From Gloeobacter kilaueensis JS1 (GTDB lineage: Bacteria; Cyanobacteriota; Cyanobacteriia; Gloeobacterales; Gloeobacteraceae), in assembly GCF_000484535.1 (NCBI RefSeq), contig NC_022600.1:2418001-2482000 (forward strand): 64,000 bases of DNA, read 5' to 3'. Below the pieces are notes generated by a model. It made no database searches, had not been told where the DNA came from, and was given only the letters and a program-made list of their open reading frames with translations. The position numbers were made by a program, and so were the translations under genes. Below, one piece after another: positions 45,985 to 51,889 of this stretch. How positions within the stretch are numbered: position 1 is the first letter of the stretch; each line of letters starts with the position of its first letter.

Positions 45985-47139
45985 ATGGCGGAGATTGGCA
46001 TCCTCACAGCCCAGGTGATTCCCGATCGGACGATTGGCCAGATCCATGTCTACGATGGCCTGGGCAAGGGCAAGTCCCAGGCTGCTCTGGGTGTGGTCCT
46101 GCGCTCGATTGGTCTGGGCATCGCCGAAAAGCGCGACAACCGCGTGCTGCTGTTGCGTTTTCTAAAAGGACCGGGGCGCGAGTACTCCGAAGATGCGGCG
46201 ATCGAGGCGCTGCGCCGCGCCTTTCCCCACCTGATCGACCAGGTGCGCACGGGGCGGGCCGAATTTTTTGGCGCTGAGCAGGTGATTCCCTTCGACAAAA
46301 AAGAAGCCCGCCGGGGCTGGGACATCGCCAAGGGGGCGATCGCCTCGGGATTCTATTCGGTTCTGGTCCTCGACGAACTCAACCCGGTGCTCGATCTGGG
46401 TTTGTTGCCGGTGGCGGAGGTGGTGAGCACCCTGCAGCAAAAGCCCCAGGATCTGGAGGTGATCATCACCGGGCGGGGGGCACCCAAAGAAATTCTCGAC
46501 GTTGCCAACCTCCACTCTGAGATGCGCGCCCACCGCCGCCCCGAGCCCACGGGTAACGGCAACGGCAACGGCAGCCATCCCCAGCGCGACTCCGGCATCG
46601 AGATCTACACCGGCGCGGGCAAGGGCAAATCGACTTCTGCCCTCGGGCGGGCGCTGCAGGCGATTGGCCAGGGCATCTCCCGCGATCTCTCGCACCGGGT
46701 ACTGATCATGCAGTGGCTCAAGGGCGGCTCGGGCTACACCGAGGACGCCGCGATCCGGGCGCTGCACCAGAGCTATCCCCACCTCATCGATCACCACCGC
46801 TGCGGGCGCGATGCGATCGTCTGGCGCGGCAAGCAGCAGGAACTCGATTACGTCGAGGCAGAGCGCGGCTGGGAGATTGCCCAGGCAGCGATTGCCTCGG
46901 GGCTTTATAAGACGATCATCCTCGACGAACTGAATCCGACGGTCGATCTTGAGCTGTTGCCGGTGGAGCCCATCGTCAAAGCCCTACTGCGCAAGCCCCG
47001 CGACACCGAGATCATCATCACTGGCCGCTGCTTCAAGCCGCCTGCCTACTTTGAGCTGGCGACCATCCACTCCGAGATGGTCTGCCACAAGCACTACGCC
47101 GAGCAGGGCGTCGATCTCAAGCGCGGCGTCGATTTTTAA
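45985..47139 (+). CDS. Tandem BtuR/CobA-fold P-loop ATPase
   Basis: 384 residues made of two copies of the cob(I)alamin adenosyltransferase (BtuR/CobO/CobA) fold joined by a short GNGNGNGS linker near residues 190-197. Copy 1 (about 18-185) has the P-loop GLGKGKSQAAL and LVLDELNPVLDLGLL; copy 2 (about 200-375) has GAGKGKSTSAL and IILDELNPTVDLELL. Both end with EVIITGRG- or EIIITGRC-type strands and LHSEM/IHSEM. Single-domain BtuR adenosylates corrinoids; whether the double form does so is unknown. The double form would be a covalent version of the normal homodimer. An intrinsic terminator follows. Confidence 0.85.
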   Translation: MAEIGILTAQVIPDRTIGQIHVYDGLGKGKSQAALGVVLRSIGLGIAEKRDNRVLLLRFLKGPGREYSEDAAIEALRRAFPHLIDQVRTGRAEFFGAEQVIPFDKKEARRGWDIAKGAIASGFYSVLVLDELNPVLDLGLLPVAEVVSTLQQKPQDLEVIITGRGAPKEILDVANLHSEMRAHRRPEPTGNGNGNGSHPQRDSGIEIYTGAGKGKSTSALGRALQAIGQGISRDLSHRVLIMQWLKGGSGYTEDAAIRALHQSYPHLIDHHRCGRDAIVWRGKQQELDYVEAERGWEIAQAAIASGLYKTIILDELNPTVDLELLPVEPIVKALLRKPRDTEIIITGRCFKPPAYFELATIHSEMVCHKHYAEQGVDLKRGVDF

Positions 47140-47172
47140 GCTGTCTACCTGTCCAGTGCATCGAGTAACCGT

Positions 47173-47203
47173 TCCGGGCCGTCCCCTCGGCCCGGATTTT
47201 TTT
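47173..47203 (+). terminator. Intrinsic terminator
   Basis: An 8-bp perfect stem TCCGGGCC / GGCCCGGA with an 8-base loop and a following run of seven T residues, 34 bases after the stop of the tandem BtuR gene. Confidence 0.85.
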
Positions 47204-47367
47204 GGGCAACCCGACTTCGCTCGGATGGTCCGGCCCACCGCAGTATCATAGGATCTGGCCCGCATGGCCTGCTGCTCAAGTGCGCTTCAAGCTCGACTCC
47301 GCTGGCTGTAGGTGGCGGGACCGCTACTGTGTCGCTGATTCACCCCGTCTTGCTGGAGAAATCTGCC

Positions 47368-48915
47368 ATGTCCGCTTCGATCGCCGCCGATCCTGCCCAT
47401 TCCCTTGCGGCGGAGGCCACCGGTCTGCTCGCCCGGCTCGGTGTTCCGCCCGAAAAATTGAAAGCCGGCAGTCTTGAGGTGCGTTCACCCATCGACGGCA
47501 GCCTGCTTGCCCGCCTGCAGACCCATACGGTAGCAGACGTGCAGGCGGCGATCGAGCGCGCTCACCGGGCATTCTTGAGCTGGCGGGAGGTGCCGGCACC
47601 CCGCCGGGGTGAGCTGGTACGGCTTTTGGGCGAGGAGTTGCGCGCCCACAAGAGCGAACTGGGCCGCCTGGTCAGCCTGGAGGCGGGCAAGATCCTCCAG
47701 GAAGGACTGGGCGAGGTGCAGGAGATGATCGACATCTGCGACTTTGCCGTTGGTCTGTCCCGTCAGCTCTACGGCCTCACGATCGCCACCGAGCGGCCTG
47801 GCCACGCGATGCGCGAGAGCTGGCATCCGCTGGGTGCGGTGGGGATCATCAGCGCCTTTAATTTTCCGGTGGCCGTCTGGTCGTGGAACGCCGCCCTCGC
47901 CCTCGTCGCCGGTGACAGCGTGATCTGGAAGCCCTCCGAGAAGACGCCCCTCACTGCTCTCGCCACCCAGGCGCTCTTTGAGCGGGCGGCGGAGCGCTTC
48001 GGCACAGCTCCTGACGGTCTGAGCGAACTGATTGTCGGCAATCGGACGGTGGGCGAAGTGCTCGTGGACGACCGGCGCGTGCCCCTCGTCTCAGCCACCG
48101 GTTCGACCCAGATGGGCCGCGCCGTCGGCCAGCGGCTGGCCGCCCGTTTCGCCCGCGCCCTGTTGGAGCTGGGGGGCAACAACGGCATGATCGTCTGTCC
48201 CTCCGCCGACCTCGATCTGGCCGTGCGCGCCATTCTCTTTGCCGCCGTCGGCACCGCCGGTCAGCGCTGCACCACCCTGCGGCGGCTTTTTATTCACCAG
48301 AGCCTCTATCAGCCCCTGATCGATCGGCTGGTCCGCGCCTACGATGCGGTGTCGGTCGGCAATCCCCTCGAAGCGCCCACCCTGGTCGGTCCCCTCATCG
48401 ACAGGGATGCCTTTGAGCGGATGCAGCAGGCGCTGAGCGATGCCCGAGCCGAAGGGGGAACAGTGATTGGAGGCGAACGCCTGCTCGCCGATCGCTACCC
48501 GGACGCCTACTACGTCCGTCCGGCCCTCGCCCTGATGCCCGCCCAGAGTGCAGTGGTGCGCCGGGAGACTTTTGCACCCATCCTCTACGTCCTCTCCTAT
48601 GGCGAGCTATCGGAGGCCATCCACCTGCACAACGACGTGCCCCAGGGACTGTCCTCGTCGATCTTCACGACCGACCTGCGGGAGGCGGAACGGTTTTTGT
48701 CGGCCACCGGCAGCGACTGCGGCATCGCCAACGTCAACATCGGCCCGAGTGGAGCCGAAATAGGCGGTGCCTTCGGCGGCGAAAAAGAAACCGGCGGTGG
48801 CCGCGAGTCCGGCAGCGACGCCTGGAAAACGTACATGCGTCGTGCTACAAACACGATCAACTACTCGCACGAGCTTCCCCTCGCCCAGGGCATCCAGTTT
48901 GCAATCGAAGGCTGA
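47368..48915 (+). CDS. ALDH7-family aldehyde dehydrogenase
   Basis: NAD-dependent aldehyde dehydrogenase, 515 residues, of the antiquitin group (alpha-aminoadipic semialdehyde / piperideine-6-carboxylate dehydrogenase). Markers are FNFPVAVWSWNAALA, the catalytic Glu in LELGGNN, the catalytic Cys in GTAGQRCTTLRRLFIH, and the ALDH7 end GGAFGGEKETGGGRESGSDAWKTYMRR followed by NTINYS. It probably degrades lysine or detoxifies aldehydes formed under osmotic or oxidative stress. ATG 47368 follows CTGGAGAAATCTGCC; the frame is open 13 codons further upstream. Confidence 0.92.
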   Translation: MSASIAADPAHSLAAEATGLLARLGVPPEKLKAGSLEVRSPIDGSLLARLQTHTVADVQAAIERAHRAFLSWREVPAPRRGELVRLLGEELRAHKSELGRLVSLEAGKILQEGLGEVQEMIDICDFAVGLSRQLYGLTIATERPGHAMRESWHPLGAVGIISAFNFPVAVWSWNAALALVAGDSVIWKPSEKTPLTALATQALFERAAERFGTAPDGLSELIVGNRTVGEVLVDDRRVPLVSATGSTQMGRAVGQRLAARFARALLELGGNNGMIVCPSADLDLAVRAILFAAVGTAGQRCTTLRRLFIHQSLYQPLIDRLVRAYDAVSVGNPLEAPTLVGPLIDRDAFERMQQALSDARAEGGTVIGGERLLADRYPDAYYVRPALALMPAQSAVVRRETFAPILYVLSYGELSEAIHLHNDVPQGLSSSIFTTDLREAERFLSATGSDCGIANVNIGPSGAEIGGAFGGEKETGGGRESGSDAWKTYMRRATNTINYSHELPLAQGIQFAIEG

Positions 48916-48970
48916 GGTTCCGTCTCACAATTGTGACAACTCTTGATAGTTCGAGAGCAGAGCCCGGCAG

Positions 48971-49056
48971 GATAATACGTGAGACGAAGGTTCTACCGCC
49001 TTCGCCTTGATGAGGAAGTGGCAGTCAGGTTGCCTCTACAGGCAGCCCTGTTTTTT
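48971..49056 (+). promoter_or_regulatory. Leader with promoter-like -10 and terminator-like hairpin before the linker gene
   Basis: GATAAT at 48971-48976 looks like a -10 box. The following leader can fold GAAGG ttctaccg CCTTC (48985-49002 region), then a second hairpin (CAGG-t-TGCCT ctac AGGCA-gc-CCTG, 49026-49050) with six T residues right behind, 27 bases before the linker start codon. The second hairpin has the form of an intrinsic terminator inside the leader, which suggests attenuation. Confidence 0.5.
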
Positions 49057-49082
49057 ACGGCCAGTTATCAGGAGAACCCACC

Positions 49083-49922
49083 ATGAATCTGCTTACCAGC
49101 AATAACTCGCGGGGCGGCAAGCTGTTCAAGCTCACCGTCGATCCGACTCCGGCAACGACCCATCTCTCGTGGTCCAGTCCTGAGACCTACGACCCGAGTG
49201 CTACGACTTACAGCCTGCTGGTCTCTCTCGACCGCCTGCTCAACGAGATGACCTACATCAAGGCCAAGGGAGGCCGGATCATCGAGGTCGTCCCCGCCGA
49301 CGAAGCCTCGGTAAGCGAGCAGAACCGCCTGGATCTGACTGCCGTCGGTGCCGAGCCCCGCGCGGTCGAGCTGTGGTCCAGCGATTCGGTTACCGATCTG
49401 CAGACGATCATCGCCGCCACCTACAAGCAGATCTTTGGCAACACCTACGTCCTTGAGAGCGAACGGCTGACCCAGGCAGAATCGCTACTCACCAACCGCT
49501 CAATTAGCGTGCGCGAGTTCGTGCGTCTGCTCGCCAAGTCCGATCTCTATAAACAGCGGTTCTTTTATTGCACCTCGAACGACCGCTTCATCGAACTCAA
49601 TTTCAAGCACCTGCTGGGCCGTCCGCCCTACAACCAGGCCGAGATTGCCGAGCACCTCGATCGCTATCAAACCTCCGGCTACGACGCCGACATCGACTCG
49701 TACATCGATAGCGACGAGTACAGCCAGGCTTTTGGCGAGACGATCGTGCCCTACTGGCGCACCTTCAACTACCAGGTGGGCCAGTCCGGCGGTGCCTTTG
49801 GCCGTACCCTCAGACTGTATCGAGGAGAGGCGGGCAGCGACACCAACCTCAACCGCACCGGGCAATTGCGCAAGATCGAACCGAGGGAGCTGTTGGTCTC
49901 GGGCCGGAATCTAATCAGCTAG
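49083..49922 (+). CDS. Phycobilisome rod linker with N-terminal CpcD-like domain
   Basis: 279 residues. The central part (about 100-240) is a phycobilisome linker domain: IIAATYKQIFGNTYVLESERL, SISVREFVRLLAKSDLYKQRFF, ELNFKHLLGRPPYNQAEI and DADIDSYIDSDEYSQAFGE. The N-terminal part (about 12-75) reads as a CpcD-like domain (LFKLTV, then YSLLVSLDRLLNEMTYIKAKGGRIIEVVP). In the usual CpcC or CpeC rod linkers the CpcD domain is at the C-terminus; here the order is reversed and nothing follows the linker domain but a 30-residue tail. ATG follows ATCAGGAGAACCCACC, a strong ribosome site. Function: joins and tunes phycobiliprotein hexamers in the rod, position uncertain. Confidence 0.9.
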   Translation: MNLLTSNNSRGGKLFKLTVDPTPATTHLSWSSPETYDPSATTYSLLVSLDRLLNEMTYIKAKGGRIIEVVPADEASVSEQNRLDLTAVGAEPRAVELWSSDSVTDLQTIIAATYKQIFGNTYVLESERLTQAESLLTNRSISVREFVRLLAKSDLYKQRFFYCTSNDRFIELNFKHLLGRPPYNQAEIAEHLDRYQTSGYDADIDSYIDSDEYSQAFGETIVPYWRTFNYQVGQSGGAFGRTLRLYRGEAGSDTNLNRTGQLRKIEPRELLVSGRNLIS

Positions 49923-51182
49923 CACCTTGCGCCCGACAAAGACCTGCTCGCAGATCTGGGCGGCCCGCTCCACCCCACCGGAGCCTGCAATCTCCGCTTT
50001 GAGCCGCCCGGCGGCCTCGCGGTAGGCAGGCTCCTCGATTACCCTGACAATCAGCGAACGCAGGGCGTCCGGGTTCAACTGCGCCGGCCAGAGCACGCCG
50101 CCGGTACCCGTCCAGAGGATGCGGCGGGCGATGGCAGGCTGCTCGTGGACCTGGGGCAGTGCCACGACTGGCAGGCCGAGGGTAAGGGCGTCCAGCGTCG
50201 TGTTGAGGCCCGCGTGGGTGAGCACCGCCGTCGAGCGCTGGATCACTTCGAGCTGCGGAGCGTAGGCGACGGCGATCGGATCGCCGGGCAGGTCGGCCAC
50301 CGTGCGCTCGTCGAGCCCGCCGCCGTGGGCAATCACCAGCTGCACCCCAAGCCCGGCACAGGCCGCTGCGATCAGCTTGAAGATTTCGGGCCGTCGATTC
50401 TGGATCGTGCCCAGCGAAGCGTACAGCACCGGTTGGCCAGCGAGGCGCTCGAAGGGGAAGGCAGGCGAGCGGGAGCGCGACGCTCCCCTCAGGGGACCGG
50501 TGTAATGAAAGTGTCTGGGCAATTGCCGACGCGGAAAATCGAAGCCGCTCGGCTGCTGGCTGATCTGGGCAAAGGGCGAATCGGTGCCCCCCCAGCGCGT
50601 CCGCCGGGGAAGATGCCAGTGGGCGCGCTGCTGCTGCAGCGTCCGCCAGAGCTTGCGGGTCAGCCAGTCGAGGGTGGCATACCCGACCCGGTTGCGCACC
50701 CGGCCCCACAGATCGGGCCGGTAGTCCCAGGGCGACGGGGCAGGGGGAATGTCCAGCTCGCGGTTGAGGGCCAGGGCACAGCAGACCGTGACGAAGGGCA
50801 GGCCCAGATATTCGGCCACTGTGCTTCCGGCAAATACCGTCTGGTCGATAAGCAGAGCCTCGATGCCCAGGGCTTCGACGGCGGCGGGTATATCCCGAAA
50901 CAGGGCGCGGGCCTCGCGCTCGTAGTACTCGATGGTGTACTTGAGATTGGCCTGACCGTCGAGGGCACTCACCTTCGCAAGAATGCCCGCCCACGATCCC
51001 GGAGGGCACTCCGCCTCCAGCACAGGATAGTAATCAAAACCTTCTGCTTCTACCTGTTGCTGCCAGTCGCGCACCATCAAAAAGACGGGGCGGTGCCCCT
51101 GGGCTTGCAGGCGATGGGCAAGGGCGGCGATCGGATTAAAGTGTCCAGTCGCCGCCGGAAGAATCACACCGAAGATCCTCAT
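49911..51182 (-). CDS. CrtX/MGT-like UDP-glycosyltransferase
   Basis: GT-B fold glycosyltransferase, 423 residues from ATG 51182. The acceptor half begins MRIFGVILPAATGHFNPIAALAHRL; the donor half has LYASLGTIQNRR, then THAGLNTTLDALTLGLPVVALPQVHEQPAIARRI, the UGT-type nucleotide-sugar motif. It resembles zeaxanthin glucosyltransferase CrtX and macrolide glycosyltransferases; a carotenoid or other lipid acceptor is plausible, not proven. It overlaps the upstream Coq4-like gene by 4 bases and the linker gene by 12 bases at the 3' end. Confidence 0.87.
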   Translation of the reverse strand: MRIFGVILPAATGHFNPIAALAHRLQAQGHRPVFLMVRDWQQQVEAEGFDYYPVLEAECPPGSWAGILAKVSALDGQANLKYTIEYYEREARALFRDIPAAVEALGIEALLIDQTVFAGSTVAEYLGLPFVTVCCALALNRELDIPPAPSPWDYRPDLWGRVRNRVGYATLDWLTRKLWRTLQQQRAHWHLPRRTRWGGTDSPFAQISQQPSGFDFPRRQLPRHFHYTGPLRGASRSRSPAFPFERLAGQPVLYASLGTIQNRRPEIFKLIAAACAGLGVQLVIAHGGGLDERTVADLPGDPIAVAYAPQLEVIQRSTAVLTHAGLNTTLDALTLGLPVVALPQVHEQPAIARRILWTGTGGVLWPAQLNPDALRSLIVRVIEEPAYREAAGRLKAEIAGSGGVERAAQICEQVFVGRKVLAD

Positions 51183-51889
51183 GGCAGGTAGCGGCCCACC
51201 AGCTCGACATCGATGTCCAGCTCGGCCCGCCACTGGGTCAGGGATTTCTCCCAGTGCTCCTCCCACTTTTGAGCAAGGAGCGGTTTCGCTCGCGCTCCCA
51301 GCCGATAGCCGACGGCAATCCGGTCGAGCAACTGTTCCAGTTCGTCGGGAGCGGTAAAGAGCACCTTCAGCATCCCCCCAGCCAGCAGCACCACCGGCAG
51401 GGGCAGGCGGGTCTGGGCCAGACAGAACGCCTGCAGCCCCAATTCGCCGCTGACGTCGCTACCCAGGGCGGTAATCAGGTGCCAGATGTCGTGGGTCTGG
51501 CGCAAGCGGGTGAGCAGGTACGCGGTGTCGTCGGTGATCGGCAAGGCGCGGTAATAGTTCGGGTCAAAACCCGTCTGGTCCATGTAGGCGGCAAAGGACT
51601 GGCCGAGCGAACCGGCGGGCAGGCGGGCCAGGGCCGCCAGATCCGGCGGCGGTGCCAGATAGCGCTCGGCGATCAAAGCTTCCATCCCCGGCTGGCGCTC
51701 GATAAAGGCGACTGCTTTTTTGGTCGCCTCCAGACGAATCAGGCCGTCTTCGATGTCGGGGGTCGCATCCGCCCGGCTCGGATCGAGGGCCAGGGTGAGT
51801 GCTCCGCGCAGCGTCGTCAGAAATTCAAGGCGCAAACCGCGTAGAGCGAACACCGGCACTCCTCCAGGGGGACGAGCGGATTGTAGCAT
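51179..51889 (-). CDS. Coq4 family protein
   Basis: 236 residues, homologous to eukaryotic COQ4, which acts in ubiquinone synthesis. The family's metal-binding motif is present as HDIWHLITALGSDVSGE (HDxxH followed by Glu), preceded by DDTAYLLTRLRQTHD. LAQTRLPLPVVLLAGGML and the C-terminal RLGARAKPLLAQKWEEHWEK also fit. Cyanobacteria make plastoquinone and not ubiquinone, so the substrate here is unknown. Translationally coupled (4-base overlap) to the CrtX-like glycosyltransferase, which suggests a joint job on an isoprenoid. Confidence 0.88.
   Translation of the reverse strand: MLQSARPPGGVPVFALRGLRLEFLTTLRGALTLALDPSRADATPDIEDGLIRLEATKKAVAFIERQPGMEALIAERYLAPPPDLAALARLPAGSLGQSFAAYMDQTGFDPNYYRALPITDDTAYLLTRLRQTHDIWHLITALGSDVSGELGLQAFCLAQTRLPLPVVLLAGGMLKVLFTAPDELEQLLDRIAVGYRLGARAKPLLAQKWEEHWEKSLTQWRAELDIDVELVGRYLP

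Follow-up and report, generated by a model that had tools for sequence, protein, structure and literature searches.

Introduction

The locus examined here raises the question of whether a PC rod linker of Gloeobacter kilaueensis JS1 carries its two domains in the reverse of the canonical order, and what such an arrangement says about the building and the origin of phycobilisome rods. The gene occupies positions 49083-49922 on the forward strand of the window, i.e., the whole 64,000-nucleotide stretch that was analysed (C1:2418001-2482000 of a genome formed by a single contig of 4,724,791 bp), and according to the list of open reading frames encodes a protein of 279 aa. "Unusually located rod-capping domains" are named in the title of a 2006 paper by Gutierrez-Cirlos et al. 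(BBA 1757:130-134) on two G. violaceus PC rod linkers. Given that report and the solved structures, the reversed order in Gloeobacter rod linkers is an already known feature. Cryo-EM structures have displayed the reversed-order linkers of Gloeobacter since 2025 (PMC12525769). The present analysis contributes the G. kilaueensis copy, its probable origin by fusion, and the occurrence of the same order in a second Gloeobacterales lineage, G008; the repetition of a published feature in a second species would alone carry little weight as a finding.

Domain order of the rod linker

The PF00427 phycobilisome linker (REP) domain is matched by Pfam at residues 103-226 (49389-49760, +; 173.9 bits, E 1.8e-51), and in an AlphaFold2 model the linker domain superimposes on 3pru with 1.1 Å over 137 residues (Z 22.6). 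Upstream of it, PF01383 is matched at residues 35-70 with 21.8 bits (E 2.4e-4), which is under the gathering score of 27. The HMM scan that the first-pass annotation had proposed thus returned both families in the claimed order, with the CpcD match falling short of the cut-off, and because of this sub-threshold score the CpcD domain was tested in four ways. In relatives, PF01383 lies above the cut-off at the N-terminus: 33.2 bits in the G. kilaueensis paralogue, 28.7 and 36.5 bits in the G. violaceus-type copies, and 40.8 and 47.5 bits in copies of G004, a related MAG (Gloeobacterales ES-bin-313). In these five family members the matches span almost the whole domain and PF00427 always comes next. 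An independent CpcD profile, for which only C-terminal CpcD domains were used (29, all from crown cyanobacteria), gave 21.1 bits against residues 1-90, the best of 1000 shuffles of the same residues reaching 6.1 bits, and scored 0, with no CpcD match, against residues 91-279. The first-pass annotation had named the lack of a CpcD match within the N-terminal 75 residues as the outcome that would speak against it; this outcome was not obtained. Moreover, residues 1-77 alone match the solved G. violaceus CpcC2 (E 1e-23), CpcC1 (E 5e-17) and free CpcD (E 2e-6).

The AlphaFold2 model, whose input alignment consisted of linker-domain rows and three full-length relatives (MAFFT gave no joint alignment of the complete protein with CpcD fragments taken from crown CpcC), places strands at residues 14-20 and 43-48, a helix at 49-61 and a strand at 65-71. 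This strand-strand-helix-strand succession over 14-71, together with the alignment of residues 12-74 with the core linker ApcC (1b33_N) at a modest Z of 5.4, corresponds to the CpcD fold in a domain of only moderate pLDDT. It is therefore confirmed that a CpcD-like domain (residues ~12-75; 49116-49307, +) precedes a single PF00427 domain within one stop-free frame, as in the CpcD-first linkers of Gloeobacter, and that the canonical crown CpcC order, PF00427 N-terminal and PF01383 C-terminal, is not the one found; the first-pass annotation as a phycobilisome rod linker of Gloeobacter whose CpcD domain comes ahead of the linker domain is correct. The two domains are separated by a little conserved spacer (residues ~76-102; 49308-49388, +), which has 26-47% identity to the Gloeobacter copies over residues 76-99 and a pLDDT below 50 at residues 75-92. 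The C-terminal tail (residues 231-279; 49773-49919, +) has 54-58% identity to the Gloeobacter copies and is held in common with Glr1262 REP3, the phmmer alignment reaching the last REP3 residue.

Relatives and distribution

By phmmer, the protein is homologous over its full length to the solved CpcC2 (9k9w; E 6e-114, residues 1-278) and CpcC1 (E 4e-102, residues 2-278) of G. violaceus PCC 7421 (Q7NM19, Q7NGF2; PDB 9k9w, 9v7h, 9v7i, 9v7l). These linkers belong to a different species, have the same length and the same CpcD-then-PF00427 order, and are ~61-65% identical to the G. kilaueensis protein over residues 1-278, which diverges from them most in the CpcD domain (45-56% identity) and the spacer, whereas the linker domain keeps 70-77%. 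Canonical crown CpcC (7eyd, 7ext, 7veb, 7sc8) is made of the same two domain families and does the same disc-joining job, but in the opposite order. The linker domains of Glr1262 and Glr2806/CpcJ are 57-66% identical to that of the protein studied here; unlike it, these proteins and Anthocerotibacter CpcN have two, three or five linker domains. A CpcD-like domain is missing from CpcN, and the Glr1262 and Glr2806 homologues of the G. kilaueensis genome gave no PF01383 match. Outside rod linkers, the nearest single-domain relative of the N-terminus, by the above E value and by tree, is free Gloeobacter CpcD (9k9w_N2), a stand-alone cap that measures 70-75 aa and has no linker domain. An N-terminal CpcD is also present in the long-form FNR, FNRL (PMC10696076), where it is fused to an oxidoreductase instead of a linker domain.

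When 291 cyanobacterial genomes were scanned, stop-free frames with CpcD followed by PF00427 were found, among the matches listed, only in Gloeobacter, G004 and G008. CpcD-first genes without stops number two per genome in all four Gloeobacter genomes, and G004 has three complete, stop-free copies and a fragment. G008 carries three in tandem, of 242, 242 and 241 aa, with frames from 2756, 3515 and 4231 of locus L159 (G008:C21:30000-44033). G008 is of the same family as G007, regarded here as Anthocerotibacter panamensis on the strength of its five-domain CpcN-like linker. A. panamensis has been reported to be without CpcC, and yet its relative G008 has CpcD-first rod linkers; this apparent second occurrence may interest work on early phycobilisome evolution. 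In many crown genomes, among the matches listed, CpcD followed by a linker domain is obtained only by readthrough of stops between neighbouring genes, as at L158 (G243:C147) and other crown loci where tandem rod linkers place the CpcD end in the reading frame of the linker domain that follows, with one stop codon in between. One apparent stop-free CpcD-first match, in G181, was on inspection a linker of standard order.

Origin of the domain order

The tree of linker domains places the Gloeobacteraceae CpcD-first domains in one clade with those of Glr1262 and Glr2806 (100/98), sister to Anthocerotibacter CpcN/CpcJ (96/90), and leaves the linker domain of the window protein outside the crown CpcC clade (100/98). 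In the CpcD tree, which is weak as it has 59 columns, the N-termini cluster with free Gloeobacter CpcD and with the CpcD of one Gloeobacter PE linker (98/93), apart from the C-termini of CpcC. A joint clade of CpcD-first N-termini and CpcC C-termini is rejected (p-AU 0.0068), which is weak evidence because the CpcC C-termini themselves do not form one clade. A free CpcD gene belongs to the same gene cluster as Glr1262 (locus L068). From both domain trees and this cluster, it is probable that a free Gloeobacter-type CpcD was fused to a linker domain of the Glr1262/Glr2806 group. The linker-domain tree could also be accounted for by gains and losses of genes, for example if Glr1262 and CpcN came from CpcD-first ancestors.

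Alternatively, the order may stem from a circular permutation, in which a canonical cpcC or a tandem array was re-joined so that the CpcD of one unit came to stand before the next linker domain. Such re-phasing is readily imagined where, as in many crown genomes, one or a few stops are all that part the CpcD end of a rod linker from the linker that follows in the same frame, and tandem copies are present in G004 and G008, but both domains of the Gloeobacteraceae proteins lie apart from crown CpcC in the trees, and permutation seems rather unlikely. The term "permuted", which the first-pass annotation had applied to the linker, is for the same reason probably not a description of its origin.

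A single clade of all CpcD-first proteins is rejected for the linker domains (p-AU 0.0067), the G008 proteins staying apart, but is not rejected on the CpcD domain alone (p 0.142). That Gloeobacterales gained CpcD-first linkers on two or more occasions, in Gloeobacteraceae from a free CpcD fused to a Glr1262-type domain and separately in G008, is about as likely as not. Should two origins be true, domain order in rod linkers would be evolutionarily free while both domains reach neighbouring discs.

Placement in the rod

In the 2025 cryo-EM structure of G. violaceus, CpcC1 and CpcC2, both of which are modelled, connect PC layers that adjoin each other, and their CpcD domain can be superimposed on ApcC (PMC12525769). 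The G. kilaueensis protein is very probably a co-orthologue of these PC rod linkers, a reading that takes together disc-pegging, canonical placement and origin by fusion. By analogy, its PF00427 domain would fill one phycocyanin hexamer's cavity, with the CpcD domain docked into the neighbouring hexamer, by which discs would be pegged into a rod. In canonical rods, the distal disc holds the linker domain of CpcC, and the CpcD-like part of CpcC touches the core-side disc, a contact resembled by that of free CpcD at the rod end. The Gloeobacter linkers may be placed likewise, with the linker domain in the core-distal disc and CpcD on the core-proximal disc, and the difference from canonical rods would then be confined to the re-routed joining polypeptide.

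It had been suggested by the first-pass annotation that the reversed order could reflect or cause a different rod order or polarity, in keeping with the bundle-shaped rods of Gloeobacter. In such a case the linker would be flipped, with CpcD pointing away from the core, and would contribute to the bundle shape; the order is truly reversed and Gloeobacter rods are unusual and bundled, as this would lead one to expect. The proposal is nevertheless very improbable. The 2025 paper holds Glr1262 responsible for the two three-rod bundles and Glr2806 for the core-side hexamers, ascribing bundling to these two proteins, and its available part reports no reversed polarity (PMC12525769). The linker domain also retains its fold, with >50% identity to crown CpcC. 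In addition, the G. kilaueensis genome uses both orders: its two CpcD-first PC rod linkers are encoded at 49083-49922 of the window and at 1621402-1622232 of the genome, while three linkers beside the Glr1262 homologue, taken to be the PE linkers, have PF00427 and then CpcD, though PE discs continue the same rods. PC and PE hexamers do stack within the same rods in G. violaceus (PMC12525769). With both orders in one genome and both pigments in the same rods, it is unlikely that domain order alone sets rod polarity. The covalent order of rod-linker domains is therefore not fixed, and should not by itself be read as rod polarity. The Glr2806 homologue of the same genome has two linker domains instead of three, as has also been described for the G. 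kilaueensis strain in the 2025 paper (PMC12525769).

Gene start and surroundings

A ribosome-binding site, AGGAGA (49070-49075, +), precedes the ATG by 7 nt, and an alignment of the upstream DNA of rod linker genes showed that both elements are kept across them. That the N-terminal CpcD is a chance similarity or the product of a wrong start codon, as the sub-threshold Pfam score might insinuate, is refuted by the independent profile scoring far above the shuffles, by close relatives passing the PF01383 threshold, by the CpcD fold of the model, by the conserved AGGAGA and ATG, and by solved homologues that include the N-terminal residues, and is scarcely credible.

The gene is solitary; by sequence reading, one of its flanking genes resembles an aldehyde dehydrogenase gene and the other, which is convergent, a glycosyltransferase gene. 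No Rfam family was found within 47000-51500, and phage sequences gave no match to the rod linker protein. TTGATA and GATAAT stand 22 nt apart at 48943-48976 of the window, an odd spacing for a sigma-70 promoter, and are kept in most of the aligned upstream regions. The 5' leader further contains a terminator-like hairpin followed by TTTTTT (49028-49055), ~28 nt ahead of the ATG. No such T-run is seen upstream of the paralogue or the other aligned Gloeobacter copies, and chance alone would give about one site of this kind. Elsewhere in the window, positions 45985-47139 encode a protein of 384 aa which, from reading its sequence, appears to join two CobO/BtuR-type corrinoid adenosyltransferase domains in tandem, both having a GKGKS P-loop.
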